Assembly: GCA_903836945.1 (NCBI GenBank)
Contig: CAILSO010000021.1
Coordinates: 1-32,601, forward strand
Source: an uncultured Actinomycetes bacterium
GTDB taxonomy: Bacteria; Actinomycetota; Actinomycetes; Nanopelagicales; Nanopelagicaceae
Direction: 5' to 3'
Length of the DNA stretch: 32,601 nt
The position numbers and the translations under genes are program-made. The notes under the pieces are model-generated. The model saw nothing but the letters and a program-made list of their open reading frames with translations, was not told the origin of the DNA and ran no database searches. Of the stretch, positions 5,687-17,273 are shown piece after piece (position 1 is the first letter of the stretch; the number at the start of each line of letters is the position of its first letter).

Positions 5687-6670
5687 GTGAAGTCAGGCGC
5701 CGCGAATACTCGTTTAGATCTACCACTGGCCCGTGCGGCAGTAGACCGAGCTGGCGAGCTGCGGGTAAATCCAGATGAGCTTTCAAAGCTTTGGGATGCC
5801 GGTCGAATCCTGCACTTGTCTTCCGGAAAATTTTTAGTCGGGGTTGACGAACAACTTAACTTTCTAGGCGCTGCGGATATCGATGCTCTTAAGTTAACTG
5901 GGAAATTTGAAAGTGGCGAAAAATTATTTCTTGGAATCAATCAAGAGTCCGGGAGAGATATTGGATATTTCGCTTGGTGCGCCGATGCGATTGATGTTGA
6001 TGCTCACGAAAATAACGTTGAATTCCAAACCTTGCGAAGCATCGGGGATCACTTATCTGATTTAGAAATGGGCCTAGCAGTTCATGCCCAAGCTCTTTCT
6101 AATTGGCACCATACTCATCAACGTTGCTCAAAATGCGGATCCACAACAACAGCGGCAAATGGTGGTTCGCTTCGTAAATGTGACGCCGAGGGATCCGAGC
6201 TCTATCCCCGAACCGATCCAGCGATTATTGTTTTAGTAGCAGATCGCACCGATCGCATTTTGCTTGGCCGACAAAAAGTCTGGCCAGAAAATCGTTTCTC
6301 TTGCTTTGCTGGCTTTGTCGAGCCAGGTGAATCATTTGAACATTGCGCAGCAAGAGAAGTTGGCGAAGAATCTGGTGTGAGTGTTAGTGATATTTATTAT
6401 TTAGGTTCACAGCCTTGGCCATTTCCAGCAAGCATCATGATCTCCTTCCAAGCAGTCACCGATAACCCAGAGGCTGCCAGACCTGATGGCGATGAGATTG
6501 AAGAGATCCTTTGGTTTTCGCGCGAATCGATGAAGAATGCAATTGCTGAAAAAAACCTCCTACTACCACCTGCAATGAGCGTTGCCCGCAAGATGATTGA
6601 GGCTTGGTTTGCCTCAGATCAAAATTTCCAAGTTAGCGATCTAGTTGGTGGTGAGAGTTGGCGGGCATAA
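5687..6670 (+). CDS. nudC: NADH pyrophosphatase NudC (Nudix hydrolase)
   Basis: The 327-residue protein hydrolyses NAD(H) to NMN(H) plus AMP, and NudC enzymes can also remove NAD caps from RNA. It shows the NudC layout: an N-terminal domain, a zinc-ribbon region with C147, C150 and C165, the PRTDPAI strand, a complete Nudix box (residues 209-231, with REVGEE core) and the NudC signature SQPWPFP at 241-247. At the fourth zinc-ligand position of E. coli NudC there is Glu168 instead of Cys. The start is GTG with AAGG about nine bases upstream. It is followed by uvrD2 with a 13-bp overlap if the TTG start is used. nudC beside uvrD2 and adnAB matches the order in Mycobacterium tuberculosis (Rv3202c-Rv3198c). 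Confidence 0.93.
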   Translation: MKSGAANTRLDLPLARAAVDRAGELRVNPDELSKLWDAGRILHLSSGKFLVGVDEQLNFLGAADIDALKLTGKFESGEKLFLGINQESGRDIGYFAWCADAIDVDAHENNVEFQTLRSIGDHLSDLEMGLAVHAQALSNWHHTHQRCSKCGSTTTAANGGSLRKCDAEGSELYPRTDPAIIVLVADRTDRILLGRQKVWPENRFSCFAGFVEPGESFEHCAAREVGEESGVSVSDIYYLGSQPWPFPASIMISFQAVTDNPEAARPDGDEIEEILWFSRESMKNAIAEKNLLLPPAMSVARKMIEAWFASDQNFQVSDLVGGESWRA

Positions 6671-8331
6671 ATAACATTCATATGGCTCCGGCCATGGGAA
6701 TGGATGAGATTCTTGCTGGCTTGGATCCAGAACAGCGCGAAGCAGTAACTGCGATTCGCGGACCGGTCTGCGTTATTGCCGGAGCCGGCACTGGAAAGAC
6801 CCGCGTAATTACCCATCGAATTGCTTATGCAATTGCAGCTGGCGTTACTGATCCCAGTAGAACTTTGGCGCTTACCTTTACCGCCCGTGCGGCTGGTGAA
6901 ATGCGCGCCAGACTTCGCGGACTTGGTGTACCAAATGCAACCGCAAGAACATTTCACTCTGCTGCACTAAAACAACTCATGTACTTCTGGCCTTACTCAT
7001 TTGGCGGGTCATTTCCACAGTTACTAACGATGAAATCAGGTGCGATCGCTGAGGCGTTGACCAGAACCGATGCAACATTGGCGCCACAAACTTCTACTCT
7101 TCGGGAAATTGCAAGTGAAATTGAATGGGCCAAAGTTTTAGAAGTTGCACCGGATCAATATGTAGAAGCGGCGTTAGGCGCTGGCCGACAACTTCGAATT
7201 CCAAATAATCGAGCAAATAAAGATAACTTAGAAGAAGTTTCCAAGGTTTATCAGGCTTATGAAACGCTAAAGCAACAAGAGCGCGCCATAGATTTTGAAG
7301 ATGTTTTACTTCTGACAGTTGGCATGTTGGAAGAGGATCGTGATGTTCGCGAGCGAGTGCGCGATCAATATCGCTATTTCACCGTTGATGAATATCAGGA
7401 TGTTTCCCCGCTGCAACAACGATTGCTAAATTTGTGGCTCGGAAATCGCGATGATCTTTGTGTTGTGGGCGATGCTGCCCAGACAATTTATTCCTTCGCA
7501 GGTGCAACTTCTGGCTTTCTAACATCATTCACCAAGCGGTACCCAAATGCCCAAGTAATTCGCCTATCTCGAGGTTATCGATCAACCCCTGAAATTATCG
7601 GGACTGCAAATGCGATTTTGCGCCAAGGCGGAATGATTGGCGAACAAGGCCACGAGCTGGCATCCATGAATGAACATGGCGCCAAACCAGAGATTAAGAG
7701 ATATCCCAATGCCGCTGCCGAAGCGAAGGAAGTAGTTAAGTCGATTGCCCAATTGCGAGGTGAGTTAGGCGATCGAATTGAGATTGCAGTATTGACTAGA
7801 ACAAATAATCAACTAGATCATTTCGAACGCGAACTTGCGGCGGCTGGAATCTCATCGCAAATTAAGAGCAGTGAAAAATTCTTTGAGCGGGTAGATGTTC
7901 GCGATGCAATGCGGGCGATTAGATCAGCCTCGGTTCTGCCACCAGAAGGCGGGGATTGGTATGAGGATTTACTTGCAGTTCTTCGTCCCTTTGGCGAAAC
8001 TGATTATGTACATGCCTTCTTACGGTTAGCCAAGACCATGAAAGAGGATGGCGCAGTAAATATGCGCACGCTACTTCGGGAACTTGAAGATCGGGCTGAA
8101 CAAAATAATCCACCAACTTTGCCGGGCGTCGTGCTTTCAACCTTGCACGCCGCTAAGGGCTTGGAATGGGATCAAGTTTTCTTGGCAGGTGTAAACGATG
8201 GCATTTTGCCTATGGGTAACGATATTGATGAAGAGCGGCGCCTGTTTTATGTTGGCCTGACTCGAGCCAAGGCTAGATTGCATATTTCATACAACGCCGA
8301 GCCAAGCCCATTTTTAGCAGGGATCATCTAA
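6658..8331 (+). CDS. uvrD2: UvrD2-type ATP-dependent DNA helicase, short form
   Basis: A superfamily 1A helicase with all motor motifs: Walker A GAGTGKTR (residues 41-48 from the TTG start), Ia LTFTARAAGE, Walker B VDEYQD, III VGDAAQTIYSF, IV LSRGYRST, V STLHAAKGLEWD and VI RRLFYVGLTRAKAR. Its place after nudC and before whiB7 is that of mycobacterial UvrD2. It is 557 residues, against about 700 for M. tuberculosis UvrD2. It stops shortly after motif VI, so the C-terminal HRDC domain and the four-Cys module are absent. The start is uncertain: TTG 6658 (with GGTGAG just upstream), ATG 6682, ATG 6694 or ATG 6700 are all in frame. The conserved part begins at LAGLDPEQ, which favours one of the ATGs, but the overlapping TTG is given as the longest option. 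Confidence 0.88.
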   Translation: MAGINNIHMAPAMGMDEILAGLDPEQREAVTAIRGPVCVIAGAGTGKTRVITHRIAYAIAAGVTDPSRTLALTFTARAAGEMRARLRGLGVPNATARTFHSAALKQLMYFWPYSFGGSFPQLLTMKSGAIAEALTRTDATLAPQTSTLREIASEIEWAKVLEVAPDQYVEAALGAGRQLRIPNNRANKDNLEEVSKVYQAYETLKQQERAIDFEDVLLLTVGMLEEDRDVRERVRDQYRYFTVDEYQDVSPLQQRLLNLWLGNRDDLCVVGDAAQTIYSFAGATSGFLTSFTKRYPNAQVIRLSRGYRSTPEIIGTANAILRQGGMIGEQGHELASMNEHGAKPEIKRYPNAAAEAKEVVKSIAQLRGELGDRIEIAVLTRTNNQLDHFERELAAAGISSQIKSSEKFFERVDVRDAMRAIRSASVLPPEGGDWYEDLLAVLRPFGETDYVHAFLRLAKTMKEDGAVNMRTLLRELEDRAEQNNPPTLPGVVLSTLHAAKGLEWDQVFLAGVNDGILPMGNDIDEERRLFYVGLTRAKARLHISYNAEPSPFLAGII

Positions 8332-8343
8332 TTAATTAGCCCG

Positions 8344-8384
8344 ATTTAATTCACTTGCGCCCAGCAGGTGGCATGGGTTACCCT
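8344..8384 (+). promoter_or_regulatory. Predicted whiB7 leader promoter with an upstream AT-rich WhiB7-type element
   Basis: TTGCGC (8355-8360) and TACCCT (8379-8384) are spaced by 18 bp. An AT-rich ATTTAATT lies at 8344-8351, three bases before the -35. In mycobacteria WhiB7 recognises its promoters through an AT-rich motif placed just upstream of the -35 while bound to the primary sigma factor. This arrangement therefore predicts autoregulation. Transcription would start about seven bases after the -10, at the ATG at 8392. Confidence 0.55.
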
Positions 8385-8391
8385 TCTGGAC

Positions 8392-8568
8392 ATGTCACAA
8401 GCAATCATCTCAACAAGCGTTCGCAGCTTCGCTGCTGCGCCTAAGTGGCATGCCTTCACAACAACAGCTAAGCATCATGCGTCAAGCACAGCGGCCTATA
8501 AGAATTTTGCAGCTTATACAGCCTCTGCACCTAAGGCAGGATGCGGAACCTGGAGCCCTATCGGATAA
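8392..8568 (+). CDS. Leader peptide (upstream ORF) of the whiB7 attenuator, 58 aa
   Basis: A small ORF begins at or next to the predicted transcription start, so it would be translated leaderless. A GTG at 8368 is in frame but lies upstream of that start. The peptide is rich in Ala, Ser, Thr and Lys/His and has no Asp or Glu. No domain is recognised. Its TAA stop is the loop of a perfect 7-bp hairpin, and an intrinsic terminator follows 17 bases later, ahead of whiB7. Upstream ORFs coupled to terminators are known to control whiB7/wblC, where slowed translation by ribosome-targeting drugs lets RNA polymerase read through. That role is inferred from context. A secreted or modified peptide is a less likely alternative. 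Confidence 0.6.
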   Translation: MSQAIISTSVRSFAAAPKWHAFTTTAKHHASSTAAYKNFAAYTASAPKAGCGTWSPIG

Positions 8569-8575
8569 CCGATAG
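8558..8575 (+). promoter_or_regulatory. Hairpin enclosing the leader-ORF stop codon
   Basis: CTATCGG and CCGATAG form a perfect 7-bp stem with an ATAA loop, and the loop contains the TAA stop of the upstream ORF. A terminating ribosome would cover it, so it can sense ribosome position in the whiB7 leader. Confidence 0.6.
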
Positions 8576-8584
8576 CAAAGCCCC

Positions 8585-8623
8585 AGGGCCGCAAATCCTC
8601 CAAAGGATTAGCGGCCCTTTTTT
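8585..8623 (+). terminator. Intrinsic terminator (attenuator) in the whiB7 leader
   Basis: AGGGCCGC (8585-8592) pairs with GCGGCCCT (8611-8618). After one A-A mismatch five more pairs form (8594-8598 with 8605-8609), leaving a six-base loop. A run of six T follows directly. It sits about 100 bp upstream of the whiB7 start and downstream of the leader ORF, the position of known whiB7/wblC attenuators. Confidence 0.85.
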
Positions 8624-8720
8624 ATTTCCCAAAACCAAACTAAATAAACCAACTAACCGAGATAACCGAGAAAGATCTATTCGAGTGAGAGCTCGAGAGA
8701 AAAATATGGAGGTGAGAACG

Positions 8721-9068
8721 ATGAGCGTTCTCTTCAGCGAACTATTGGTACCAGGGTGGGCTGATGGCCCAGATGCGATGATCGGCATTCGTGAAGTAGC
8801 CGATGCCACATTTAAGCTCCCTTGCCATTCAACCGACCCCGAAGTTTTCTTCGCCGAGTCGAAGGCTGAAATCTCCTATGCCAAGGCGCTCTGCGGTGAA
8901 TGCCCAATGAAGGCGAAATGTTTAGAGGGCGCGCTCTCGCGCAATGAGCCTTGTGGAATTTGGGGTGGCGAACTCTTCGACAATGGCCGCGTGATTACGG
9001 AGAAGCGATCTCCGGGAAGACCGCGACTTAATACAGAAGCAACGCTAGAAAGTTCGATGGCGAGTTGA
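8721..9068 (+). CDS. whiB7: WhiB7/WblC-type Fe-S transcriptional regulator
   Basis: A 115-residue WhiB-family protein with four Cys for a [4Fe-4S] cluster (LPCHSTDP, then LCGECPMKAKC). It has the GIWGGELF turn and a C-terminal GRPR AT-hook, which marks WhiB7 among WhiB paralogues. WhiB7 binds the primary sigma factor and activates intrinsic antibiotic-resistance genes. The start at 8721 is chosen because a near-perfect Shine-Dalgarno GGAGGTGAG (8708-8716) sits eight bases upstream. An in-frame ATG at 8706 overlaps that site, and the frame reaches back to 8541 only through leader RNA. The position after uvrD2 is the same as in M. tuberculosis (Rv3197A). Expression is probably controlled by autoregulation and by the attenuator at 8392-8623. 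Confidence 0.92.
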   Translation: MSVLFSELLVPGWADGPDAMIGIREVADATFKLPCHSTDPEVFFAESKAEISYAKALCGECPMKAKCLEGALSRNEPCGIWGGELFDNGRVITEKRSPGRPRLNTEATLESSMAS

Positions 9069-9097: not shown

Positions 9098-10321
9098 CTA
9101 GGTGATGCAACCACACTCCGGATTTGGTTTCCAATAATCAAAATCCGGAGTCAGTGGATGAAGTAAATCGATGTTGGCGCTGGCGCCAAGAAGTGGCGAC
9201 TTCTGGGTGGCCACAAATTCACAAATTTGCAGAACGATTATTCCGGCTAAGGCTGCAACCGCACTTGCCGGGATTTCCAACGGCTTAGAAATTGCACTTA
9301 GCAAATCCAATTTCTGATGCCTGGAATTTACCGAACTTCGCCAGAGTTCCAGGCACCGAAGACATGGAGTTCGACCAGGAATCACAATGGGACCGATTTG
9401 AAATTTTGATTCAATTAAAGTTCCGATTCCAAGGTGTGCAACGCCCTCACTCATCCATCGCTGAATTTGCGTCGGACTTAACCCAATGGTGGAGATCGCA
9501 AAATTTGCCGGGGAGGCATCACTCTTTGAATTGAAATTTGGCAGATGTATTAACTGCGCCGAACGTCGTAATTCTTCATATATATCAAGGGGTGCAGCGC
9601 CCAAATCGCTATTTCGTAGCGCCAGTCCGCAAATCATCTCAACAGTAATCTCTTTGGTGGGTTTTGACTCTGTAACTAAAAGCGCTTTGGTAAAGCCGCT
9701 GGCTTGAAGGAGAGTAAATAAAGTTATTGCCAATCGATTAGTGCCATGAATTTCAACTTTAAAGTTTGCCCTTGATTTAACTAAGCCAAGAGAATCCAAT
9801 TTGTGCAGTTGCTGCCAGGCAGCCAAATTTAATTCCGGGCGAATGCGCTTCTGGAAATTAATCTCACTCTGCGCCGTTAGCGGGGCGCCCTTATTTCCTG
9901 AAGTAGCGCCTGATGAAGTTCCGGTTCTTGTTGCAGAAGTAGTCTGCGATTTAGAAGAAGTAGAACTTAGCTCTAGCAAGTTAGCCCCAGCCAGGAGCGC
10001 CACAACTTCCTGGCAATCTTCCATGAAGTCGATCGCTTCTAATTTTGTGCCGCTGTCAGCGTTCTCGATACCAGCGTCCTCGACTCCAACATTGAAGTGC
10101 TCTTTAGCGATTTCGGCAATCTCAGATATCGTCCGCCGCCCATCAAGCAAGGAGATGATTAGAGAAGTTAGCTCTGGGTTGGGAGTTGAGATTTCAATGC
10201 CTCGATATAGCAAGCCAACGTAAATTTCACGATTCTCACATCCACCGCGAAGCAGATTGACCCCCGGCTTAAGCGTGGGATAGGTGAGAGGTGTTGGGCC
10301 CTTTTGATCTGATGAATTCAT
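9098..10321 (-). CDS. ThiF/TOMM cyclodehydratase-like protein (Rv3196-type)
   Basis: The 407-residue protein resembles the E1-like subunit found in RiPP cyclodehydratases and its actinobacterial homologues. The N-terminal part (about 40-80, with DGRRTISEIAEIAKEHF) looks like a small winged-helix, RRE/PqqD-like segment. A Ser/Thr-rich linker spans 118-150. A Rossmann-like part begins at about 186. The C-terminal part has PGRTPCLRCLELWR (C320, C323) and a final ECGC (C403, C405), a probable structural zinc site. The glycine loop of the Rossmann fold is degenerate (HGTNRLA), so ATP use is doubtful. No YcaO partner or precursor peptide gene is seen nearby. Homologues sit in the same neighbourhood in other actinobacteria, where they are also uncharacterised. 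Weak start context; ATG at 10321. Confidence 0.6.
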   Translation of the reverse strand: MNSSDQKGPTPLTYPTLKPGVNLLRGGCENREIYVGLLYRGIEISTPNPELTSLIISLLDGRRTISEIAEIAKEHFNVGVEDAGIENADSGTKLEAIDFMEDCQEVVALLAGANLLELSSTSSKSQTTSATRTGTSSGATSGNKGAPLTAQSEINFQKRIRPELNLAAWQQLHKLDSLGLVKSRANFKVEIHGTNRLAITLFTLLQASGFTKALLVTESKPTKEITVEMICGLALRNSDLGAAPLDIYEELRRSAQLIHLPNFNSKSDASPANFAISTIGLSPTQIQRWMSEGVAHLGIGTLIESKFQIGPIVIPGRTPCLRCLELWRSSVNSRHQKLDLLSAISKPLEIPASAVAALAGIIVLQICEFVATQKSPLLGASANIDLLHPLTPDFDYWKPNPECGCIT

Positions 10322-10388: not shown

Positions 10389-10425
10389 AAAAAAATAACG
10401 CCCACCGTGATCGGTGAGCGTTATT
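10389..10425 (-). terminator. Intrinsic terminator downstream of the zinc-ribbon gene
   Basis: AATAACGC (10394-10401) pairs with GCGTTATT (10418-10425). After a C-A mismatch five more pairs form around a TGAT loop. On the minus strand the stem runs into a T tract (complement of A at 10389-10395). It separates the 52-aa zinc-ribbon gene from the ThiF-like gene. Confidence 0.8.
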
Positions 10426-17199: not shown

Positions 17200-17273
17200 C
17201 GCGGGGTGGAGCAGCTCGGTAGCTCGCTGGGCTCATAACCCAGAGGTCATAGGTTCAAATCCTGTCCCCGCTA
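17200..17273 (+). tRNA. Initiator tRNA-fMet (anticodon CAT)
   Basis: A 74-nt cloverleaf. The acceptor stem pairs GCGGGG with CCCCGC and leaves an unpaired C1 opposite T72, the first-pair mismatch that marks initiator tRNAs. The anticodon loop CTCATAA is closed by three G-C pairs (GGG/CCC), the second initiator signature. The T arm GGTTCAAAT is canonical. The discriminator is A and the CCA end is not encoded. Confidence 0.96.

Follow-up and report, generated by a model that had tools for sequence, protein, structure and literature searches.

A probable whiB7-type transcription attenuator with a predicted leaderless sensor ORF in a small-genome actinobacterial lineage

Is the RNA leader in front of whiB7 in a small-genome actinobacterium a switch that reads the position of a ribosome, or is it only a stretch of RNA that carries a terminator? 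The window analyzed here, a stretch of 32,601 nucleotides, comes from an uncultured member of the family Nanopelagicaceae (class Actinomycetes) with a genome of 1.26 Mb in 56 contigs, a small-genome actinobacterium that probably lives in fresh water, to judge from its genome size and GC. The whiB7/wblC attenuators of mycobacteria and Streptomyces, which depend on an upstream open reading frame (uORF), were reportedly treated by Lee 2022. Ribosome-mediated whiB7/wblC attenuation in other actinobacteria is described in passages of PMC10727445, PMC11550727 and PMC13393426. We propose, with a probability of about 0.92, that the whiB7 5' leader of the window is likewise a ribosome-position-dependent transcription attenuator of the whiB7/wblC type. 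Judged by comparative sequence analysis, the element is a real and functional-looking member of this known class, and its variant feature is a predicted leaderless sensor ORF.

The gene downstream of the leader encodes a WhiB7 orthologue. Its product carries the Pfam Whib domain, five cysteines that include the four-cysteine WhiB pattern, a GIWGG motif and a PGRPR AT-hook-like tail; no NCBIfam model matched it at E<=0.001. At E<=6.2e-45, 24 of the 27 genus genomes carry an orthologue, the remaining three being 60-70% complete, and whiB7 matches extend to 140 of 151 family genomes (E<=1e-20) and 246 of 296 class genomes (E<=1e-14). The nearest named relatives among the matches listed are uncultured actinobacterial MAGs, with WhiB7 identities of 88% (L173) and 83% (L174). 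A uvrD2-like gene lies upstream of whiB7 and is preceded by a nudC-like gene for an NAD(+) diphosphatase. The locus is thus a nudC-uvrD2-whiB7 neighborhood, which we take to be the surroundings of whiB7 in M. tuberculosis as well.

The features that an initial annotation had listed for the leader (AT box, -35, -10, ATG at 8392, 58-codon ORF, 7-bp stop hairpin and ribosome-binding site) are all present at the positions it gave (Table 1). It had also counted a 13-bp terminator stem with a T tract; the terminator stands, but its stem (8585-8618) consists of 8+6 pairs around one A.A mismatch. The annotation's assignment to the whiB7 attenuator type, with a leader predicted to be translated and a terminator, is well supported by conservation and covariation; it had overlooked the antiterminator, on which any switching depends. 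All 23 genus leaders that reach far enough upstream share the whole layout, the stop hairpin being judged partly by eye; a 24th is truncated by a contig end. Loss of the terminator and ORF from relatives that keep whiB7, which the annotation had named in advance as counting against it, does not occur: both are kept in all 23.

Table 1. Features of the whiB7 locus, in coordinates of the window
Feature	Position	Strand	Basis
UvrD-family helicase gene (uvrD2-like), upstream of whiB7	6658-8331	+	profile matches
AT-rich box ATTTAATT, likely WhiB7 AT-hook contact site	8344-8351	+	sequence; genus conservation
Promoter: -35 TTGCGC (8355-8360), 18-base spacer, -10 TACCCT (8379-8384)	8355-8384	+	sequence; genus conservation
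Leader (sensor) ORF, 58 codons + TAA, predicted leaderless; Ala/Ser/Thr-rich, no Asp/Glu/Leu	8392-8568	+	
Antiterminator 5' arm, last leader codons (AGGAU/GCGG/CCUGG/GC)	8538-8556	+	swap test, folding, covariation
Stop-codon hairpin CTATCGG-ATAA-CCGATAG, 7 bp; loop AUAA holds UAA; apical part of antiterminator	8558-8575	+	
Antiterminator 3' arm, includes terminator 5' arm	8580-8599	+	swap test, folding
Intrinsic terminator: stem 8585-8599/8604-8618, T tract 8618-8623	8585-8623	+	folding, covariation
whiB7 ribosome-binding site GGAGGTGAG	8708-8716	+	sequence; GGAGGTGAG/GATGGTGAG-type sites likewise in genus leaders
whiB7, 115 aa	8721-9068 (stop codon 9066-9068)	+	ORF; Pfam PF02467, 58.9 bits; orthologue in 24/27 genus genomes

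The antiterminator and the terminator are mutually exclusive because both use positions 8585-8599. Folding of the leader RNA is stronger than expected by chance (z = -2.9; matched by 1 of 200 shuffles), and nowhere else on the plus strand of the window does a run of six T follow 34 bases that fold at <=-18 kcal/mol; the minus strand has one such site, near 10395. Genus leader ORFs close with GCGGA[TAG]CCTGGAGC, complementary to GCCCCAGGGCCGC, which lies before and inside the terminator 5' arm, and elsewhere in the class the antiterminator pairs take forms such as CCTGGAG/CTCCAGG, CCTCGAG/CTCGAGG and CTTTGAG/CTCAAAG. In the window the paired 5' arm stops at 8556, nine bases short of the stop codon, and 8-9 bases lie between the two in the 23 genus leaders, the stretch searched for this arm itself stopping seven bases before the stop codon. 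In L114 (G321), 34 bases separate the leader stop codon from the terminator arm, one of the largest such distances in the class.

Folding also bears on the order of events. Nascent RNA ending at 8600 or 8612 adopts the antiterminator fold, whereas the full-length leader at equilibrium prefers the terminator, even with only upstream bases blocked, and the terminator remains when 8548-8581 is blocked; the two computed states (-31.4 vs -33.0 kcal/mol) differ by 1.6 kcal/mol. Because the full-length RNA prefers the terminator at equilibrium, the switch must be kinetic, with the first-formed fold deciding. In the mechanism that we propose, RNA polymerase would start on the leader AUG or no more than one or two bases from it, and a ribosome would follow closely. 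Once it had translated all 58 codons and reached the UAA, its footprint (assumed to be about 8548-8581), within which the antiterminator 5' arm ends, would cover this arm together with the stop hairpin; 8585-8618, left free, would then fold as the terminator and transcription would end near 8623. A ribosome stalled or slowed by about codon 44 or before would instead leave 8538-8556 to pair with 8580-8599 around the stop hairpin. The antiterminator would thereby take the terminator 5' arm before the 3' arm is made, polymerase would read into whiB7, and WhiB7 would probably then amplify its own promoter through the AT-rich box.

Whether the arms evolve together was assessed over 127 non-duplicate leaders (23 from the genus, 46 from other genera of the family and 58 from the rest of the class). 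These remained from 144 loci once duplicates had been collapsed and four loci discarded: L150, for which no hairpin was called, L126, where the wrong hairpin had been taken, and L023 and L037, which lie at contig ends; the terminator at each locus is the best hairpin chosen by search, and hence no independent proof of its existence. When 3' arms were exchanged between species, a comparison that retains shared ancestry, leaders paired better with their own arms. Own against exchanged arms gave -18.13 vs -15.61 kcal/mol across the whole set, -16.73 vs -14.30 kcal/mol (sd 0.36) among the other genera of the family and -17.94 vs -16.56 kcal/mol (sd 0.33) beyond the family; in none of the three did any of 2000 permutations do as well. 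Within the genus the arms are nearly invariant and the exchange is uninformative (1644 of 2000 as good). The weakest predicted antiterminator duplexes, at -9 to -11 kcal/mol, belong to L077, L078, L083, L074, L112, L132 and L152.

Covariation in alignments points the same way, with differing strength among the parts and with both selections of leaders favoring the structure. The family alignment (A3, MAFFT) holds 37 of the 69 genus and family leaders (13 from the genus, 24 others) and omits near-copies and several diverged g16, g2, g5, g6, g12 and g15 leaders. In it the antiterminator with the stop hairpin scores 0.155 against 0.112 +/- 0.008 shuffled (0/500) and 0.083 for the best slid control, and 11 of 17 pairs are changed on both sides; a one-base slide of the antiterminator has more changed cells, 23 vs 21. 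The class alignment (A4) holds 44 of 58 leaders, 14 without a clear motif being left out. There the seven core pairs of the antiterminator give a modest signal (0.259 vs 0.230 shuffled, 13/500); 73 and 100 of 500 shuffles do as well in pairs changed on both sides and in changed cells, respectively, and a one-base slide reaches 0.255 with more changed cells (28 vs 17). Covariation is also seen for the stop hairpin in the family, where both partners have altered in 5 of 6 counted pairs, and for the terminator in the class (0.102 vs 0.051 shuffled, 0/500). For the terminator in the family the evidence is mixed: no shuffle of 500 matches its score, but 347 of 500 do as well in the number of pairs altered on both sides.

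These data also bear on a rival explanation, that the hairpin is a plain intrinsic terminator (e.g., of uvrD2 or of a small coding RNA), with whiB7 expressed by background read-through and the ORF incidental. The hairpin is a strong terminator and uvrD2 ends at 8331, 12 bases before the AT box, yet a frame of 50-73 codons stays open and a WhiB7-type promoter precedes it in all 23 genus leaders, and the antiterminator arms co-vary outside the genus. We regard a plain terminator as very improbable.

The promoter has the layout expected for WhiB7 control. The AT-rich box ends three bases 5' of the -35, in keeping with the three-base rule for WblC in S. coelicolor given in a passage of PMC7157823, and box, 18-base spacer and TTGC..TACNNT are present in 23 of 23 genus leaders. 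A generic consensus scan reported no sigma-70 promoter and no terminator at the whiB7 leader, so that the promoter assignment rests on the WhiB7-type layout and its conservation. Autoactivation by WhiB7 through the AT-rich box is plausible from this layout. A strict form of the promoter pattern was found at two sites in the source genome, whiB7 and one other (control, 0 forward and 1 reverse), and a second form at four (control, 3). Only the whiB7 site stands out from the controls, so the promoter pattern revealed no WhiB7 regulon in this genome.

The distance from promoter to start codon suggests that the sensor ORF is leaderless, as had been annotated, with RNA predicted to start at the first base of the AUG. 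Seven bases separate the -10 from the ATG in the window, and no Shine-Dalgarno sequence accompanies it. Leaderless initiation at this ATG has one competitor, in which the attenuator is real and its RNA begins further upstream or uses a weak internal initiation site. The start of transcription is placed by position, the generic promoter scan was silent, and in five of the six g17 leaders that were scored the gap from -10 to ATG is 9 bases, all of which would suit that explanation. Against it, the ATG stands 6-7 bases 3' of the -10 in 23 of 23 genus leaders, a position reached in 72 of 4600 trials when the 14 bases after the -10 were shuffled; no in-frame internal ATG or GTG with a Shine-Dalgarno match of >=5 occurs in any of the 23; and only 2 of 71 Shine-Dalgarno-led leaders have an ATG or GTG 5-9 bases after the -10. 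An upstream or internal start is thus unlikely, and we favor leaderless initiation.

By position and absence of a Shine-Dalgarno sequence, all 23 genus leaders appear leaderless. Among 46 leaders from other family genera, 18 were scored leaderless (one doubtful, L085, with 11 bases and an internal Shine-Dalgarno start), 25 Shine-Dalgarno-led and 3 were unscored; the 58 from the rest of the class comprise 46 Shine-Dalgarno-led, one leaderless and 11 without a promoter in the examined stretch. In all, a promoter was lacking within the 620 bases examined for 14 of 127 leaders. On a WhiB7 tree of 72 rows, built from a short protein with several long branches and including only 6 of the 58 class leaders, initiation mode needs 8 changes (7-9 over bootstraps), at least three of them forced by well-supported branches. 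The predicted mode has switched repeatedly, at least three times on this tree.

Relative to known systems, the element shares with the mycobacterial and Streptomyces whiB7/wblC attenuators an orthologous gene, a leader ORF (here predicted to be translated), a Rho-independent terminator and a WhiB7-type promoter (passages of PMC10727445, PMC11550727 and PMC4128351), as well as an antiterminator formed from overlapping uORF and terminator sequences. It differs in predicted initiation from the Shine-Dalgarno-bearing uORF of M. bovis and M. marinum, as excerpted from PMC4128351, and from the rest of the class, where 46 of 47 scorable leaders are Shine-Dalgarno-led. The portions consulted of the literature on whiB7 and leaderless initiation, a scope lying outside Lee 2022 and Poulton 2024, contained no leaderless whiB7 uORF, and top-ranked matches on the freshwater acI lineage held no mention of whiB7. 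A leaderless small ORF also serves as sensor in the polycysteine attenuators of M. smegmatis (Canestrari et al., as cited in parts of PMC13236596 and PMC9031893); those respond to cysteine supply and act on translation, whereas broad ribosome stress and transcription termination are proposed here. In trp/ilv-type amino-acid attenuators, such as ilvB1 of M. tuberculosis (a passage of PMC13236596), ribosome position likewise picks terminator or antiterminator; unlike them, the leader studied here precedes a stress regulator and has no short run of regulatory codons for a single amino acid. Finally, the E. coli toiL-topAI uORF responds, as a single uORF, to several drug classes; according to sections of PMC12121999, it acts on translation and indirectly on Rho, without Ala/Ser/Thr codons, and chloramphenicol induction was not observed for topAI.

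The leader peptide had been described as unusually long, which is not supported: its 58 codons fall within the 50-73 of the genus and the 23-116 (mean 69) of the class. From the ATG after the -10 to the stop at the hairpin, the frame is open and predicted to be translated between promoter and terminator in all 23 genus leaders, although it was picked as the ORF ending near the terminator, so that absence of in-frame stops is by construction and no independent proof of existence. The other two frames hold 2.2 and 5.6 stops per 100 codons. Could the ORF then encode a functional small protein rather than a sensor? An open frame of strongly biased composition and a peptide end G[STA]WS.I in 22 of 23 genus leaders (the 23rd, L026, ends GSWSNLS) would be in keeping with one. 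This end overlaps the RNA arms and changes along with them (L113 ends FEDPL), and Pfam gave no match to the peptide at E<=0.01. With the last 14 alignment columns set aside, 1026 non-synonymous differences stand against 374 synonymous over 3491 codon comparisons, made between non-independent pairs at least 60% identical, and third positions show a mild excess of differences (804 vs 632 and 603). Peptide-level conservation outside the end is accordingly rejected; sequence drifts and composition stays. We regard a functional small protein as very improbable and retain the sensor reading.

That composition is strongly biased. Ala, Ser and Thr make up 50.9% of the window leader and 46.9% of genus leaders, compared with 24.0% in 26 window ORFs (mechanical ORFs, not annotated genes). 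The window value is reached by none of 8505 overlapping 57-residue stretches of these ORFs, and that for Ala alone by seven. Asp and Glu, absent from the window leader, account for 0.9% in the genus and 11.9% in window ORFs; Leu is strongly depleted along with them and Lys is not. Taking as paired control the longest upstream open frame of the same locus, not an annotated gene, Ala+Ser+Thr is higher in the leader in 23/23 genus, 43/43 family and 40/45 class leaders, and Ala alone in 23/23, 43/43 and 30/45. The genus share of 46.9% also lies above the 33.6% of leaders elsewhere in the class. Separately, the mycobacteria-like leaders L111, L112 and L152 are the richest in alanine (36-38%) among the 45 class leaders set against their control frames, and their antiterminator arms are irregular or weak (-14.9, -10.9 and -10.9 kcal/mol).

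The richness in these residues suggests, without proving, a trap for peptidyl-transferase drugs or alanine starvation. The proposal draws on the composition bias itself; the stalling preferences of chloramphenicol and linezolid, which stall best with Ala, then Ser or Thr, as the penultimate residue of the nascent chain (a passage of PMC8987054); the notable exception of whiB7 in M. tuberculosis under linezolid, where downstream coverage otherwise falls (part of PMC10937400); and the reported requirement for WhiB7 in the alanine starvation response (Poulton, as cited in an excerpt of PMC10727445). If the proposal is true, Ala/Ser/Thr would provide nascent-chain contexts in which chloramphenicol- and linezolid-type drugs stall ribosomes, these contexts together with a drain on alanyl-tRNA would explain the breadth of inducers, and leaderless versions would report elongation and not Shine-Dalgarno-dependent initiation. 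A codon-level prediction follows from the composition, namely phenicol and oxazolidinone stalls after Ala/Ser/Thr and no special macrolide motif; such stalls would fit the linezolid exception of whiB7 (PMC10937400, in the same part). Enrichment of the macrolide +X+ motif was rejected (5 seen in 23 genus leaders vs 10.7 expected from shuffles). A section of a 2025 paper (PMC12121999) states that antibiotic stalling of ribosomes within the whiB7 uORF had not yet been tested, and the portions consulted of the whiB7 uORF and stalling literature, with Poulton 2024 and Lee 2022 outside their scope, contained no proposal of an Ala/Ser/Thr trap for whiB7.

The same richness might instead reflect needs of the RNA, an unstructured leader with C at codon position 2, and not stalling. 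C at this position is common to most Ala, Ser and Thr codons, accessibility of the RNA presumably matters in attenuators, and beyond the family Ala alone is higher in the leader than in its control frame at no more than 30 of 45 loci; proline, also encoded by NCN, is nonetheless no commoner than elsewhere, at 2.4% compared with 4.8% in four window proteins, and the depletion of Asp, Glu and Leu, with Lys spared, also speaks against it. We consider RNA needs a quite possible explanation, still short of a probable one. That the leader is a stall trap selected for composition is a tentative reading on our part. We are similarly hesitant about the joint reading of a generic antibiotic trap, selected for make-up and not for sequence, together with repeated switching between Shine-Dalgarno and leaderless initiation in small-genome lineages.

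A covariance model of the leader RNA (R1) finds it in 25 of 27 genus genomes. G007 has the RNA at a contig edge and no whiB7 orthologue match, G018 has RNA and whiB7 on different contigs, both at contig ends, and G008 and G024 have neither. R1 matched in 35 of 60 genomes, the strong match being single in each, with 70 candidates per genome scored under stricter filters that could miss weak copies; ten genomes also give a second, weak match, which overlaps the first on the other strand and was rejected as a further copy. In G178 the match is weak (E 0.07). Against Rfam 15 at gathering score, the window yielded only a tRNA (17200-17273) and the leader was unmatched, as were the leaders of five distant whiB7 loci at E<=1; a sub-threshold guanidine-II match at L100:213-259 (22.6 bits, gathering 32) lies outside the leader. 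To the known class the present analysis adds an attenuator in a small-genome lineage, the repeated switch of predicted initiation mode, figures for the bias in composition, and the result that neither the window leader nor the five distant ones match an Rfam 15 family.

Several minor features surround the switch. The spacer between terminator and whiB7 (8626-8707) and its genus counterparts are A/C-rich and G-poor (22 spacers: A 50%, C 26%, G 13%, T 10%), range from 38 to 130 bases, and may have a Rho-loading or spacing role. Judged by eye, the spacers of L008, L026 and L075 contain short tandem repeats; that of the window has a single 9-base unit doubled. The whiB7 reading frame is open upstream through the terminator to 8541 (8541-9068, plus strand) and thus runs into the last part of the leader ORF, which is read in a different frame; this is probably chance. 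Converging on whiB7 from the minus strand is a 407-aa ORF (9098-10321) with a weak match to TIGR03882, a TOMM precursor leader peptide-binding protein (28.8 bits vs a cut-off of 36.9).
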